Assembly: GCA_016794005.1 (NCBI GenBank)
Contig: JAEUKY010000034.1
Span: 1 to 49,705 of the forward strand
Source: Rhodospirillales bacterium
GTDB lineage: Bacteria > Pseudomonadota > Alphaproteobacteria > CACIAM-22H2
Direction: 5' to 3'
DNA: 49,705 nucleotides
Both the position numbers and the translations under genes were made by a program. The notes below the pieces were generated by a model. The model ran no database searches. It worked only from the letters and a program-made list of their open reading frames with translations, and was not told where the DNA came from. Positions 29,071 through 44,537 of the stretch are shown in pieces. Each line of letters opens with the position of its first letter. Position 1 is the stretch's first letter.

Positions 29071-30189
<1,119 letters not shown>

Positions 30190-30375
30190 GGGATCTATCC
30201 TCTTGAACTTCGACGTGTAAGCCCGGAACCGCCCGAAATCGGACAGTCGGGAATCGCTCCAGACGAAGTGATACCACGTGTTTGGGGTTTTTGTGTTCTG
30301 GTTTCGCAATATTCCCGAGTGCTGTTGCCCGGGAGGCACATATGATGTTTTACGTTATATTTTTACTGTAATATA

Positions 30376-31464
30376 TTATTCTATAACGATTTCTACGCGC
30401 CTGTTTCGCGGCTCGTTGATCTGATCGGGTGTCGGTACGAGAAGCTGCGTCTCGCCACGACCGATGACGACAATTTGCGTCGCGGGAATTCCCTCGCGGA
30501 CGAGCACGTCGCGGACGGCGTTTGCCCGCCGGATCGACAGCGCCATGTTGTATCTCGGGGTGCCCATCGTGTCGGCATGCCCGGTCGCTCGGATGCGGGT
30601 GAATATCCCCGCTTTCGCCGACTCGGCGGCCTGCACGAGTACCCGGTTCGCATCTTCGCTGACGTTCGACTTGTCGAATTCGAAGAAGACCGTGAAGGCG
30701 CGCGGCCCCACGATCGGGGCGGCCGCGAGGGCCGGTGGCTGCGACGCTGCCGGCGGCGGGGGAGCGGCGACGGGCTGTGCCGCAGCGGCCGGCATCGCGG
30801 CCGGAACCGCGATCGTCGGATTGAACGCATAGCGCATCCCGATCACGATCGAATGGTCGCGGTACGGAATGCTTGCCGAATCGCCTGCCGTGCTTCCGAT
30901 GCTTGCGGACTGCGTGGCGAAGTAGCGGTAGCTCGCGCCGAGCGCCATATTGTCGCCGATCCTGTAATCCAGCCCGACGATGCCCTGATAGGCGAAAACA
31001 TTCGCGGCACCGGAAACGAACGCGTTGCCCTGATCGGGGCCGACGTCCTTGGCGCGAAGGCGTGCGCCGCCGATGCCGGCGCCAAGATATGGCACGAACG
31101 ATGTCTCGTTCGCGAAATCGTAAAGTACGTTCGCCATCAGGCTCGACACGTCGATGCGACCGCCTCCGGCAGCTCCGGTCGCGTTGTCGACGCCGCGCAC
31201 GCTGCCCGCGCGATGCCCCAGTTCGAGTTCGCCGCGCAGCCCGTTGCCGAAGCCGTAGCCGATCGCGGCGGTACCCGCGGCACCCGCGCCGATCTTGACC
31301 GTCGATGTCTGGCCGTTGCGCGCCATGCTGGAGTTCTGCGGCTTGTGCACGCCGACATTGCCGCCGACATAGATGCCGTCGAGATACTCGGGCCGTTTCT
31401 GCGCCTGTGCAGCCGTGACGGCGAAAATCAGGACGATGGCTGTGGAAAATGCGCGCAAGACCAT
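30376..31464 (-). CDS. OmpA family outer membrane protein, second tandem copy
   Basis: 362-aa paralogue of the gene downstream. It has a signal peptide (AQA-Q, about 22), an 8-stranded barrel with DGIYVGGNVGVHKPQNSSMA and LYDFANETSFVPYLGAGIGG, a shorter Pro/Ala linker, and an OmpA_C domain (FFEFDKSNVSEDANR, ATGHADTMGTPRYNMALSIR, ending NRRVEIVIE). Its 186-base spacer to the next gene lacks a terminator. In the peptidoglycan motif the aspartate/arginine pair is retained. Tandem copies suggest duplication with divergence of the barrel. Confidence 0.92.
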   Translation of the reverse strand: MVLRAFSTAIVLIFAVTAAQAQKRPEYLDGIYVGGNVGVHKPQNSSMARNGQTSTVKIGAGAAGTAAIGYGFGNGLRGELELGHRAGSVRGVDNATGAAGGGRIDVSSLMANVLYDFANETSFVPYLGAGIGGARLRAKDVGPDQGNAFVSGAANVFAYQGIVGLDYRIGDNMALGASYRYFATQSASIGSTAGDSASIPYRDHSIVIGMRYAFNPTIAVPAAMPAAAAQPVAAPPPPAASQPPALAAAPIVGPRAFTVFFEFDKSNVSEDANRVLVQAAESAKAGIFTRIRATGHADTMGTPRYNMALSIRRANAVRDVLVREGIPATQIVVIGRGETQLLVPTPDQINEPRNRRVEIVIE

Positions 31465-35038: not shown

Positions 35039-36609
35039 GCGAACAGCCCGTGCAGGTACCAGCGCGGCGGCTGCACGCGATCGGCCGTCCACAGGCCTTC
35101 GCGATAGACCCAGAAGCGCCGACCGTCGCGGTCCTCGAGGCGATAATAGTCGCGCGGCTCGGCGCGCCGGCGCCACCATTCGGCACCGATGCGCTCGGGA
35201 CCGGCGGCGGCAGCGACATGGTGGACGAGCCGCCGCCAGCGGAACAGCAACGGCGGCGCGTCGGGCAGTTCGGCGGCGACGTCGATCGGTTCGGGATGTG
35301 TCAGCAGGCGCAACGGACGCGGGCCGACGGGCGGCCGCGCGCCACGCAAAGCCACCGGCAACGGGGCGAGCGGCGCGACGAAAGCCTGCGCGCGCTCGGG
35401 CAGATGGCTTTCGACATGCGCGAGCCGCACGACGTTCGCGGCACCCAGCCGGTTGGCGAGCCGGTCGACGAGCGGTGCCATCGACGCCGCGTCCGAAAGT
35501 CCGCCGGCCGAAGCGCCGGCATCGGGAAGCAACGCGCGTGCGAAGCGCTGCTGCTCGGGCAGGAGCGCTTCGACGATTTCCGCATCGAGCGTGGCCAGTT
35601 CGAAGCCGAAACCGGGATCGACGCGCTGGATCGGTTCGGCGAACAGCCGGCGGAAGGCGGATGCGTCGCGCGTCGGCCGGCTTGTGCCCAGCGCCGTGCG
35701 CGTCGTGGCGCCGTCGACGCGGTGTAAGACGAGTGCCAGCCGCCGCGCGCCGAGGGCCGCAGTTTCCATCCGCGCGCACAGATCGTCGGACAGCCGGGCG
35801 ACCGCCCGCTCGATATCGGCGAGGGCGCTGATGGGGTCGGCGAAGGACAGCCGCGCGCGCAAGGCAGGCGGTGGGGCATCGGGCGAAAGCGCTTCGGCTT
35901 CCGTCCCCAGCGCCTGGAAAAGCCGCCGTGCGATCGCGGGACCGAAACGCCGGGCGAGGGCGCCGCGTCCGTCGGCGGCGTCCGCCAGCGGATAGAGATC
36001 GCCGATCCGCCGCAGGCCGAGCCGGTCGAGCGTGGCGAGATCCGCTTCGGCAAGGCGCAGTCCCGCGACCGGCAGAGCGGCGATGGACTCGCGCGTGGCG
36101 CCGGGCGCAAAGCGCGCCGTGGCGGTCCGCGCGAAACGCGCACCTGCCCACGCGGCGCCGAGCGTATCGGCAAGGCACGCACGCGCGAGAAGCCGCTGGC
36201 CCTTCAGCCGGGCCGCGACGTCGACGAGCAGCCCCTCTTCGCCGCCGAACAGATGCGCCACGCCGCCGGCGTCCAGACGCAGGCCGCGGTCGTCGTCTTC
36301 TATCGCGACCGAGGGCGACCAGCGCTGTGCGGCTTCCGCCACGCGGCGCAGCAGCGCCCGGTCGGCCTCCGGCGCATGCCGTTCGACGCGCAGGTCGGGA
36401 ACGCGCGCGCGTGCTTCGGCAAGCGGCAGCCCCGGACGCAGGCCCGCGCGTGCGGCGCGTGGACAGACCGCCGCGAGTTGCAGGCCGCCCTGGATGGAGG
36501 CGAAGGTCGCACGAGCGACCGGATCGATCGCGTCGTCAGCCTGCCGCGCGCACCGGTCGGTCGGAAGATGCGGCAGGTAGATCGCCAGGAACCGCCGGTC
36601 GTTCGTCAT
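35035..36609 (-). CDS. imuB: ImuB, Y-family polymerase homologue of the mutasome
   Basis: 524-aa relative of Y-family polymerases. The N-terminus RFLAIYLPHLPTDRC lacks the first catalytic Asp and the FFASVE-type motif, and SVAIEDDDRGLRLDAGG stands where active polymerases have SIDE. This matches ImuB as a non-catalytic hub. The C-terminal DUF6504 region ends RDYYRLEDRDGRRFWVYREG. In known systems ImuB bridges the beta clamp, ImuA and DnaE2. It overlaps imuA by 74 bases and dnaE2 by 4. Confidence 0.94.
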   Translation of the reverse strand: MTNDRRFLAIYLPHLPTDRCARQADDAIDPVARATFASIQGGLQLAAVCPRAARAGLRPGLPLAEARARVPDLRVERHAPEADRALLRRVAEAAQRWSPSVAIEDDDRGLRLDAGGVAHLFGGEEGLLVDVAARLKGQRLLARACLADTLGAAWAGARFARTATARFAPGATRESIAALPVAGLRLAEADLATLDRLGLRRIGDLYPLADAADGRGALARRFGPAIARRLFQALGTEAEALSPDAPPPALRARLSFADPISALADIERAVARLSDDLCARMETAALGARRLALVLHRVDGATTRTALGTSRPTRDASAFRRLFAEPIQRVDPGFGFELATLDAEIVEALLPEQQRFARALLPDAGASAGGLSDAASMAPLVDRLANRLGAANVVRLAHVESHLPERAQAFVAPLAPLPVALRGARPPVGPRPLRLLTHPEPIDVAAELPDAPPLLFRWRRLVHHVAAAAGPERIGAEWWRRRAEPRDYYRLEDRDGRRFWVYREGLWTADRVQPPRWYLHGLFA

Positions 36610-37453
36610 CGCAAAGCGTCCATCCGTCGCGCCGGTGATCGATGTGCCATTCGCCCGGTGTGCCGCCCTGCGCGCGCGCGAGCGTCAGGCGCCAACGGCG
36701 GGCTTCGCCGTCGTGAGCGGGTGCGGGAAGGGCGGCGACGCGCCAGCGTGTGCGCGCGGCACTCGCCAGATCGAGTTCGCCGGGCGGGCGCAGCAGCAGT
36801 GCCGTCGTGCCGCCCATCTCGGCGGCAAGCTGCAGGCGGCGGGACTGCGTGAGATCGACGTCGTCGATCTCGGCGACGGCACCGGCAAGGGCGGGCGTGC
36901 GCAGCGCTTCCTCGAAGGCCCACAGCGCGTCGGCGCGCCGGGGTGCATTGACGATCAGCAGACGTGCGGGTTCCAGGCCGAGTGCGGCAAGTCCCGCCGC
37001 GCTCAACTCGGGGCGGCGCGCGATCCACAGCACCGGACCGTCGCCGGCAAGCCGGGCAAGCAAGGCGGTCGCGAAGCCGGCGGCAGCGCCGTCGTTCGTG
37101 GCGCCGGCGATCTCGTGCAGGGCGCCGCGCGGCAGGCCCGGCCAGGGTAGGGCCCCGTCGATCGCGGGAATGCCGAAAGCAAGCGGCCCGCGGCCAGGTT
37201 GCGCACGTTCCCCGAACGCCGCCAGACGGGCCTTGAGTTCCTGGACCGTGGTCGATGCCGGACGGCGGAGGCTGCGGGACTGTGTTGCCATGGCGCTTTT
37301 GATCAAGGGGTTGCGGATCTTCCCGAAAGTCGACTGTGTCCGGCTGGGCAGGGAGGCGAGGCCAAGTCGGGGCATGCGCGCGAAGCTTTCGTGCACGATA
37401 TGTTCCGGGAAAAACCCATCGAACGATGACTGCGAGAGCGCGGCTTCGAACAT
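36536..37453 (-). CDS. imuA: ImuA, SulA/RecA-like mutasome protein
   Basis: Accessory protein of the mutasome. The core (about 251 aa from residue 55 on) has GIPAIDGALPWPGLPRGALHE, LLARLAGDGPVLWIARRPEL and LLLRPPGELDLASAARTRWR, typical of ImuA, with no intact Walker A. I annotate ATG 37453 since AGGAG lies six bases upstream, giving 305 aa. The alternative ATG 37291 has no ribosome site but would give the usual length. The extra 54 residues (MFEAALSQSSFDGFFPEHIV onward) are unlike anything I know. The operon is headed by an SOS box. Confidence 0.88.
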   Translation of the reverse strand: MFEAALSQSSFDGFFPEHIVHESFARMPRLGLASLPSRTQSTFGKIRNPLIKSAMATQSRSLRRPASTTVQELKARLAAFGERAQPGRGPLAFGIPAIDGALPWPGLPRGALHEIAGATNDGAAAGFATALLARLAGDGPVLWIARRPELSAAGLAALGLEPARLLIVNAPRRADALWAFEEALRTPALAGAVAEIDDVDLTQSRRLQLAAEMGGTTALLLRPPGELDLASAARTRWRVAALPAPAHDGEARRWRLTLARAQGGTPGEWHIDHRRDGWTLCDDERPAVPGDLPAASSDRPVRAAG

Positions 37454-37467
37454 GATTTGCTCCTGAT

Positions 37468-37482
37468 GTTCTATTTTCGTTC
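37468..37482 (-). promoter_or_regulatory. LexA (SOS) box of the imuA-imuB-dnaE2 operon
   Basis: GTTC-TATTTTC-GTTC is an exact GTTC-N7-GTTC, the LexA operator of alphaproteobacteria. It lies 15 to 29 bases ahead of imuA ATG 37453, next to the ribosome site. A further GTTCTAT at 37495-37501 repeats the left part. It also lies 146 bases before the divergent 47-codon gene, so it might regulate both. Confidence 0.93.
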
Positions 37483-37627
37483 AATTCTTGATTTGTTCTA
37501 TATTTTTGTAGGATGGCCGTCAAGCGACCGAATTCATCAGTAGAAAAAATGATCTTGCATTTTGCAACGCCGAATGCGATCTTTGCCAAATCAGACTACA
37601 ATAGAAATCCGGAAGCCCGTGAGAACC

Positions 37628-37771
37628 ATGCCCCGCAAGATCGCAACCCTCCAGACCGGTCGCCGCAAGGGAAGCTCCGCGAAGTCCGATACGCCGGACA
37701 TCGCCGAGGTCCTCGCGAGCCTCAAGAAGATCCTGGTCGAAGACGGACTGCTGCCGCATACGAAGCACTGA
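37628..37771 (+). CDS. 47-residue protein with a PopZ-N-terminus-like helix, divergent from the SOS mutasome
   Basis: Small protein with GC-rich third codon positions, its own terminator, and a start (ATG 37628) after GTGAGAACC. Residues 1-20 are basic (MPRKIATLQTGRRKGSSAKS). Residues 23-40, PDIAEVLASLKKILVEDG, align without gaps to PopZ residues 10-27 of this window, PSMEEILASIRRIISEDG: 9 of 18 identical and 6 conservative. That PopZ segment is the client-binding helix in Caulobacter. The gene lacks the Pro-rich and C-terminal assembly parts of PopZ. I infer a PopZ mimic or competitor, possibly damage-linked. Chance resemblance of short amphipathic helices cannot be excluded. Confidence 0.7.
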   Translation: MPRKIATLQTGRRKGSSAKSDTPDIAEVLASLKKILVEDGLLPHTKH

Positions 37772-37794
37772 CCTCCCGGCATATCGGGAAGCGG

Positions 37795-37821
37795 GGCCAC
37801 GCCGGATGGGCGTGGCCTTTT
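37795..37821 (+). terminator. Rho-independent terminator of the 47-codon gene
   Basis: GGCCACGCC (37795-37803), loop GGATG, GGCGTGGCC (37809-37817), then TTTT. It sits 24 bases after the stop and shows that this short gene is a complete transcription unit. Confidence 0.9.
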
Positions 37822-37844: not shown

Positions 37845-39386
37845 TCAGGACGGCACGCGCCCGAGGCCGTGCTTCTCGGCAAGATAGCTGCCCAACGACG
37901 CCTGATCGGCAAGACCGATATGAAGGCCGAGTTTCGAGCGGCGGAAGAGGATGTCGCCCGACGTCCGCGCCCATTCTTCGCCGACCATCAGATCGACTTC
38001 GGCAGCATACAGGCCGGCACCGAAATGGATGCCGAGATCGTCGATCTTCGTCGCCCCTTCGAGGAAGCGGAAGACGCGCCCGCCCTGCCGACGCGCCATC
38101 GCGCGCAGATGGTCGGGCGGCACGAACGCGAAACGGGCGGCAAGTGCCGCCGCAAACCGCTCGAAGTCTCCGTCGATACCGTCCAGTTCGCCGCCGGGCA
38201 GGCGGGCATGCGACGTCCAGGCCGGCTTCATCGCCGGGAAGAACGGCGAAAGCTTTTCCAGCGCGTGCTCGGCAAGCCGCCGGAACGTCGTGATCTTGCC
38301 GCCGAAGATCGACAGGGCCGGGGCGCGGCCGTCGCCGCCGTCGAGCTCGAGCACATAGTCGCGCGTCGTCTCGCTCGCGTTGTCGGCGCCGTCGTCGTAG
38401 AGCGGGCGCACGCCCGAGTAGCTCCAAACGGCGTCGGACGGCGACACCGGCCGGGCGAGAAAGCGGTTCGCCGCATTGCACAGGTACTCGGTCTCGGCCG
38501 GCGTGATCGCCACGCGGCCCGGATCGCCTTCGTAGACGACGTCGGTCGTGCCGATCAGCGTGAAACGGTCCTGATACGGAATCACGAAGACGATGCGCCT
38601 GTCCTCGTTCTGCAGGATGAAGGCGTGCTCGCCCTCGTACTGGCGCGGCACGACGATATGGCTGCCCTTCACGAGCTTGAGTGCCGCCGGCGCGTTCGAG
38701 CCGAGGATGCCTGAAATCGTCTGCATGACCCACGGGCCGGCCGCATTGACGATCGCGCGCGCGCTGACTTCGGATTTCTGGCCGGAGATGCGGTCGGAGA
38801 GCGCCGCGCGCCACACGCCGTTCTCGCGGCGGGCTGCCGTCGCCTGCGTGCGCACGCGAATGTCCGCCCCGAGATCGGCGGCATGCCGGGCGGCGAGGGC
38901 GACGAGGCGCGCGTCGTCGACCCAGCCGTCGGAGTAGACGAAGCCGATCCGAACGTCGGTACGAAGGCCGCGGCCATAGGGACTGCGCGCGAGATCGACC
39001 TTGTGCGAACCCGGAAGGCGCGACTTGCGGCCCGGGATCCAGCCCAGATGGTCGTAAAGAAAAAGCCCCGCGCGGATCATCCAGGCCGGCCGCAGGCTGG
39101 AATCGTGCGGCAGCACGAAACGCATCGGCCACATGATGTGGGGAGCGCCGCCGAGCAGCACATCGCGCTCGGACAGCGCCTCGCGGACGAGGCGGAACTC
39201 GTAGTGTTCGAGATAGCGCAGCCCGCCGTGGATGAGCTTCGTCGAAGCCGACGACGTCGCCGACGCGAGATCGTTCTGCTCGACCAGCAGGACGGACAGG
39301 CCGCGTCCGGCGGCGTCGCGCGCGATACCGCAGCCGTTCACGCCGCCGCCGATGATCAGAAGGTCGTAAGTGGAATCCGTTTGCAT
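37845..39386 (-). CDS. glpD: Glycerol-3-phosphate dehydrogenase (FAD-dependent)
   Basis: 513-aa membrane-associated flavoenzyme oxidising glycerol 3-phosphate to dihydroxyacetone phosphate with electrons going to quinone. The FAD motif LLIIGGGVNGCGIARDAAGR is at about 9-28, followed by SSASTKLIHGGLRYLEHYEF and, in the middle, PLYDDGADNASETTRDYVLE. The C-terminal DAO_C domain is present. No glycerol kinase, facilitator or glpR is adjacent. ATG 39386. Confidence 0.96.
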   Translation of the reverse strand: MQTDSTYDLLIIGGGVNGCGIARDAAGRGLSVLLVEQNDLASATSSASTKLIHGGLRYLEHYEFRLVREALSERDVLLGGAPHIMWPMRFVLPHDSSLRPAWMIRAGLFLYDHLGWIPGRKSRLPGSHKVDLARSPYGRGLRTDVRIGFVYSDGWVDDARLVALAARHAADLGADIRVRTQATAARRENGVWRAALSDRISGQKSEVSARAIVNAAGPWVMQTISGILGSNAPAALKLVKGSHIVVPRQYEGEHAFILQNEDRRIVFVIPYQDRFTLIGTTDVVYEGDPGRVAITPAETEYLCNAANRFLARPVSPSDAVWSYSGVRPLYDDGADNASETTRDYVLELDGGDGRAPALSIFGGKITTFRRLAEHALEKLSPFFPAMKPAWTSHARLPGGELDGIDGDFERFAAALAARFAFVPPDHLRAMARRQGGRVFRFLEGATKIDDLGIHFGAGLYAAEVDLMVGEEWARTSGDILFRRSKLGLHIGLADQASLGSYLAEKHGLGRVPS

Positions 39387-43898: not shown

Positions 43899-44537
43899 AT
43901 GACGGACCCAAAGAACCAACAAGAACCGTCGATGGAGGAGATCCTCGCCTCCATCCGTCGAATTATTTCGGAAGATGGAGACGCGGGTAAGGCGCCTCCG
44001 GCTGCCCCGGCCGAAGCTGCGGCACCACCCCCTCCGCCTCCGCCTCCGCCACCACCCCCGCCGCCCCCTCCGCCGCCGCCACCCCCTCCGCCGGCTGCGG
44101 CGCCCCCGCCGCCGGCGCCTGAACCCGAGCCTGAACCGGAGCCCGAACCCGAGCCGATGATGGAGGCGCCGCCGCCCCCACCGCCTCCTCCTCCTCCTCC
44201 GCCGCCGCCGCGTCCGCGCATGCCGGAACCGGAGATGGACGACGTACTCGAGCTCACCAACGTGGTGGACAAGCCGCCGCCGGTGATGTCGGAGGAGCCG
44301 CGCCGACTCATGTCGGACGACACGGCCCGGCAGGCGTCGGACTCGTTGCAGGGGCTGCAGGCGCGCGTGCCGCGCAACCTGCTGCTCGGCAACTCCGACC
44401 TCACGATCGAGGATCTGGTCCGTGCCGAATTGCGGCCGATCCTGAAGGCTTGGCTCGACCAGTACCTGCCCGACCTCGTCGAGCGGATGGTCCAGCGCGA
44501 GATCCGAAGGATCACCCGCGAGTCGCAGGACTATTGA
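43899..44537 (+). CDS. popZ: Polar organizing protein PopZ (DUF2497)
   Basis: 212-aa scaffold that condenses at cell poles and anchors the chromosome origin through ParB. Residues 10-27 (PSMEEILASIRRIISEDG) are the conserved client-binding helix. The linker holds an unbroken run of 23 prolines at 43-65, then a Glu-Pro repeat and a second run of 14 prolines. The C-terminal oligomerisation region (about 160-212) has LTIEDLVRAELRPILKAWLD and LPDLVERMVQREIRRI. It is followed directly by valS, the usual order. The proline runs should demand elongation factor P. Confidence 0.96.
   Translation: MTDPKNQQEPSMEEILASIRRIISEDGDAGKAPPAAPAEAAAPPPPPPPPPPPPPPPPPPPPPPPAAAPPPPAPEPEPEPEPEPEPMMEAPPPPPPPPPPPPPPRPRMPEPEMDDVLELTNVVDKPPPVMSEEPRRLMSDDTARQASDSLQGLQARVPRNLLLGNSDLTIEDLVRAELRPILKAWLDQYLPDLVERMVQREIRRITRESQDY

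Follow-up and report, generated by a model that had tools for sequence, protein, structure and literature searches.

The open reading frame at 37628–37771 on the plus strand of the window (the whole stretch of DNA analysed, 49,705 nucleotides) is a real protein-coding gene under purifying selection. It encodes a 47-residue microprotein with a helix whose resemblance to helix 1 (H1) of PopZ, the organiser of the cell pole, goes beyond chance. The gene stands beside the imuA operon but has a conserved operator of its own, which recurs in the genus near chemotaxis and adhesion-type genes. We tentatively propose that the microprotein may naturally modulate the polar hub.

A Conserved Gene Adjoining imuA

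37628–37771, plus strand: gene of the 47-residue PopZ-H1-like microprotein (open reading frame, orthologues, dN/dS)
37793–37819, plus strand: terminator-like hairpin 3′ of the microprotein gene
36536–37453, minus strand: imuA, divergent neighbour (match to the ImuA family of NCBIfam below cut-off; neighbour conserved)
37845–39386, minus strand: glpD-like FAD-dependent dehydrogenase gene, convergent neighbour (DAO domain)

Protein and profile searches found orthologues of the encoded protein (MPRKIATLQTGRRKGSSAKSDTPDIAEVLASLKKILVEDGLLPHTKH), 47 to 54 residues long, in 10 of the 11 genomes of the genus (Tagaea and relatives), the named carriers being Tagaea sp. CACIAM 22H2 and other Rhodospirillales MAGs. 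Neither the microprotein nor imuA gave a match in the eleventh (G007, 74% complete). The divergent arrangement with imuA, noted originally for the window, holds at 10/10 loci, and the hairpin answers to the terminator claimed for the gene; a glpD-like gene lies beside it in 7/10 loci, the window's own included (tblastn). Close orthologue pairs differ mostly at third codon positions, and dN/dS is approximately 0.09–0.16 in five of seven pairs and 0.23–0.25 in two. The orthologues, the fixed locus, the low dN/dS, and the hairpin thus indicate a conserved protein-coding gene. The frame is short and confined to one genus, as a chance frame might be, but with dN/dS mostly at 0.1–0.25 and with core, tail, and operator conserved in ten genomes this explanation can be dismissed as very improbable.

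At the sensitivity used, the microprotein is restricted to Tagaea and relatives. Outside the genus, 385 alphaproteobacterial genomes yielded only weak matches (E ≥ 0.003), many of which are PopZ, and a pattern search of the imuA loci of other genera in the family recognised no similar frame. There was no useful homologue in searches of Pfam, NCBIfam, PDB, plasmids, or viruses, and no match to the region in Rfam. The literature searched describes no small protein of this type, in agreement with the original prediction. One record, titled as an Asaia bogorensis MAG (L080), carries a locus of this genus, and its title may be misassigned. Elsewhere in the window (29071–31464), two similar genes lie side by side; by eye, their products seem to be outer-membrane beta-barrel proteins whose C-terminal part is OmpA-like.

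Anatomy of the Microprotein

37628–37693, plus strand: codons 1–22, variable N-terminal part, predicted disordered, basic in most orthologues (alignment, charge, pLDDT)
37694–37747, plus strand: codons 23–40, PopZ-H1-like segment PDIAEVLASLKKILVEDG (alignment, profiles, predicted helix)
37748–37768, plus strand: codons 41–47, family-specific conserved tail LLPxxxH, absent from PopZ (alignment)

AlphaFold2 predicts a single helix at residues 25–39 (pLDDT ~90), the remainder being mostly of low confidence (pLDDT 52–55 in the N-terminal part, whose net charge ranges from 0 to +5 across orthologues). There is no long hydrophobic stretch. In the family alignment K4, P23, L29, K33, L36, E38, D39, G40, L42, P43, and H47 are invariant, and L41 is nearly so. 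After the helix comes a tail of only 7–8 residues, with the family consensus EDG[LV]LPx(3-4)H; its mean identity beyond EDG is 0.78, versus 0.74 for the helix. The protein had been said to carry a copy of the PopZ helix. The H1-like pattern is indeed there, but the protein is not simply a copy, because conservation is just as high in the tail EDGLLP..H, which PopZ lacks, as in the PopZ-like part. Conservation of this tail suggests a function beyond H1 mimicry.

Resemblance to PopZ Helix 1

43899–44537, plus strand: popZ of the same genome, used as comparison gene, with the H1 core at 43926–43979 (PF10691; PopZ family of NCBIfam below cut-off)

Residues 23–40 of the microprotein align without gaps to PSMEEILASIRRIISEDG of the window PopZ, with 9/18 identical and 15/18 positive residues (BLOSUM62 score 54), which reproduces the match first reported. 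The best unrelated 18-mers of the window and seven loci of the genus score 32–34, and none of 200,000 shuffles reaches 54. Profile–profile comparison (hhalign) of the microprotein family with PopZ gives a probability of 90–91% and a score of 27.9; the highest score among 400 column shuffles is 18.5. Among 973,000 18-mers, a PopZ profile made from a sample drawn by PopZ's other domain (PF10691 matches) ranks the microprotein helices directly after PopZ, with scores of 32–47; this set includes loci fetched for their profile resemblance, among which one chance match scores 40 (L042), and 18-mers from sequences fetched for other reasons score up to ~27. Reciprocally, the microprotein family profile ranks PopZ first after its own members in the same set.

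When the family profile is run against six-frame whole genomes, PopZ comes second among its matches in 10/10 carriers (E 0.15–0.62), which amounts to one observation and not ten, because the PopZ copies are related. When whole genomes are searched with the microprotein or its family profile, PopZ reaches only E 0.15–0.9 per genus genome. A very sharp profile of PopZ helices only, whose member sequences are almost the same, does not list the microprotein at E ≤ 10. With a joint profile the sample's two microproteins sit among PopZ (~1e-7 to 4e-8), partly by construction, as the family is in the profile. The same profile was used to look for further stand-alone H1 microproteins in 240 genomes; among the matches listed (E up to ~1e-4), the four other short frames checked are short or contig-end PopZ.

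The P, L, and R/K of the microprotein helix match invariant PopZ positions, and the hydrophobic H1 positions are kept. A local duplication of popZ may or may not lie behind the segment: between the popZ and microprotein segments 30/54 nucleotides are identical, and the same codon is used at 5/9 shared residues. The resemblance is beyond chance, but it is limited to 18 residues and could have arisen by convergence. To judge by residue pattern and profile similarity, the segment would class as H1-like. The microprotein is PopZ-H1-like and not a PopZ, since the linker and the DUF2497 domain are absent and the tail has no counterpart in PopZ. The linker of the window PopZ itself contains a long poly-proline run.

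A Conserved Operator and Its Other Targets

37555–37567, no strand assigned: palindrome TTGCATTTTGCAA, a conserved operator that overlaps the putative −35 of the microprotein gene
37578–37583, plus strand: putative weak −10 GATCTT (3/6), 17 nt from TTGCAT

All ten orthologues have an operator TTGCA-N3-TGC[A/G]A at the promoter, 53–81 nt before the start codon, and its first half can serve as the −35 of the microprotein gene. The putative −10 is better in most other orthologues (4/6 at a spacing of 16–17 in 8/9; 3/6 in L006), and a generic sigma-70 scan found no promoter for the window copy.

Across the 11 genomes the pattern TTGCAWWWTGCRA is over-represented, with 61 distinct sites versus 3 for the reversed control. 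The microprotein gene is the only target common to all ten carriers, and it is the sole site in two genomes (G009 and G001). The site recurs at chemotaxis receptors, one of them with PilZ, at PAS hybrid kinases, at DUF2336 proteins and pentapeptide proteins, and at adhesin-like genes; it is also found near a DUF4347 protein (L202, L209, L198, L207, and L217 for the receptors, a PAS hybrid kinase, and this protein). In six genomes (L226, L179, L200, L201, L213, L222) a gene with a GH114 domain shares the operator region with a 75-residue protein (MFRNKxDGFK..., no Pfam match), and L222 has two operators at this locus. In four genomes (L186, L204, L218, L221) one operator is shared by mnmG (identified by eye) and a divergent 68-residue protein (METYVVQFYKAG..., no Pfam match). 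Several matches lie inside called frames or downstream of genes, and not all sites are promoters. Taken as sequence matches, the sites suggest an undescribed chemotaxis/adhesion regulon. RtrC (PMC9648850) was considered as a possible regulator. In one genome only (G010, L224) an operator stands just upstream of an Lrp/AsnC-like gene, a possible regulator. The conservation of the operator and its recurrent targets favour a lifestyle regulon and disfavour SOS control.

Possible Function

The N-terminal helix 1 of PopZ is the client-binding element (PMC9926476; PMC9512792), and the client side of this binding is described as largely uncharacterised (PMC9926476). A homologue of the RcdA family (DUF1465) is present in 11/11 genomes of the genus. 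RcdA is a PopZ client in Caulobacter.

The explanation that we favour is that the microprotein is a genus-specific protein that engages the partner surface of PopZ H1 and competes for clients or tunes their recruitment, under lifestyle and not SOS control; we regard this as plausible, although we would not yet call it probable. The mostly disordered chain would present, on one amphipathic helix, the residue pattern of H1, and this helix would bind a partner surface that recognises PopZ H1, e.g., on RcdA. Lacking an oligomerisation domain, such a soluble H1 pattern would occupy clients without recruiting them, so that the microprotein could compete with PopZ or tune the recruitment of clients to the polar hub. 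Its expression would be set by a non-SOS regulator of the TTGCA-N3-TGCAA operator, which would also control chemotaxis/adhesion genes and might occlude the putative −35. An H1-like helix together with a promoter that points to a chemotaxis/adhesion switch is what suggests a natural modulator of the hub. Competition with PopZ for clients is possible. A more elaborate form of the proposal is rather unlikely: the microprotein would be a natural mimic of the client-binding helix of PopZ that stands alone and perhaps descends from the nearby popZ, and with a chemotaxis/adhesion regulator in control, a lifestyle switch would titrate clients off the hub.

In the literature searched, PopZ is the only described carrier of this client-binding helix. 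If the proposal is true, a 47-residue natural competitor would show that cells can tune the polar hub by a soluble peptide, and it would be a ready tool for mapping which clients use H1. The operator, for its part, brings to light a regulon that seems not to have been described before, in a genus that has been little studied.

The microprotein might instead serve the chemotaxis/adhesion regulon as regulator or adaptor, with a partner unrelated to PopZ clients and with the tail EDGLLP..H as main binding element. An operator common to chemotaxis, PilZ, kinase, and adhesion-type genes would fit this, as would a tail conserved as much as the helix; the PopZ-like helix pattern is left unexplained, and we place this alternative on the unlikely side while giving it serious weight.

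Two further explanations start from the neighbourhood of imuA, for which the following sites matter.

37468–37482, no strand assigned: LexA box GTTC-N7-GTTC of the imuA promoter
37484–37498, no strand assigned: second box, ATTC-N7-GTTC, LexA-like and conserved in the upstream regions of all ten orthologues

Strict adjacency to imuA and co-occurrence with it in the genus could mean that the microprotein works with the ImuA-ImuB-DnaE2 mutasome and that its helix resembles PopZ H1 by convergence only. This is improbable, as the gene has an operator unrelated to LexA, the PopZ resemblance is above chance, and a pattern search of imuA loci in the family's other genera recognised no such frame. The original prediction had coupled the protein to the SOS response. 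In this explanation LexA would repress both it and imuA from the divergent region between them, and the protein would act on PopZ clients after DNA damage. The gene does always stand beside imuA and its conserved LexA boxes, and the microprotein is absent where imuA was not found (the 74%-complete G007). However, these boxes are part of the imuA promoter, close to imuA, and stand 56–105 nt upstream of the operator and putative −35 of the microprotein gene, whose own promoter has no LexA box; in other genera of the family, LexA-like boxes are retained at imuA loci where no such frame was recognised. Because the boxes sit at imuA and the gene has another operator, common to chemotaxis, kinase, and adhesion-type genes, SOS control is not supported, and we consider an SOS microprotein quite improbable.

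Comparison with Known Systems

SidA and DidA are DNA-damage-induced small division inhibitors of Caulobacter. The microprotein shares with them its small size and, as regards SOS, only adjacency to an SOS operon. It would differ from them in that no LexA box is at its promoter and in that its sequence has no long hydrophobic stretch.

With PopZ (PF10691/NF052660) the microprotein shares the H1 pattern P-x-[hydrophobic]-x-x-[IV]-L-x-[SD]-[hydrophobic]-[KR]-x-[IV]-[IL]-x-E-D-[GD] and a single helix within a disordered segment. Unlike PopZ, it lacks both the C-terminal DUF2497 oligomerisation domain (47–54 residues, no Pfam or NCBIfam match) and the central acidic, proline-rich disordered linker, its N-terminal part is basic in most orthologues, it carries a conserved tail LLPx(3-4)H that PopZ lacks, and its gene has a different promoter.

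As a general concept, microproteins and decoys may copy just one element by which a larger protein interacts. The present microprotein resembles them in having one such element but none of the larger protein's functional domains; unlike them, it has a conserved tail of its own, and its competition with PopZ is a prediction.
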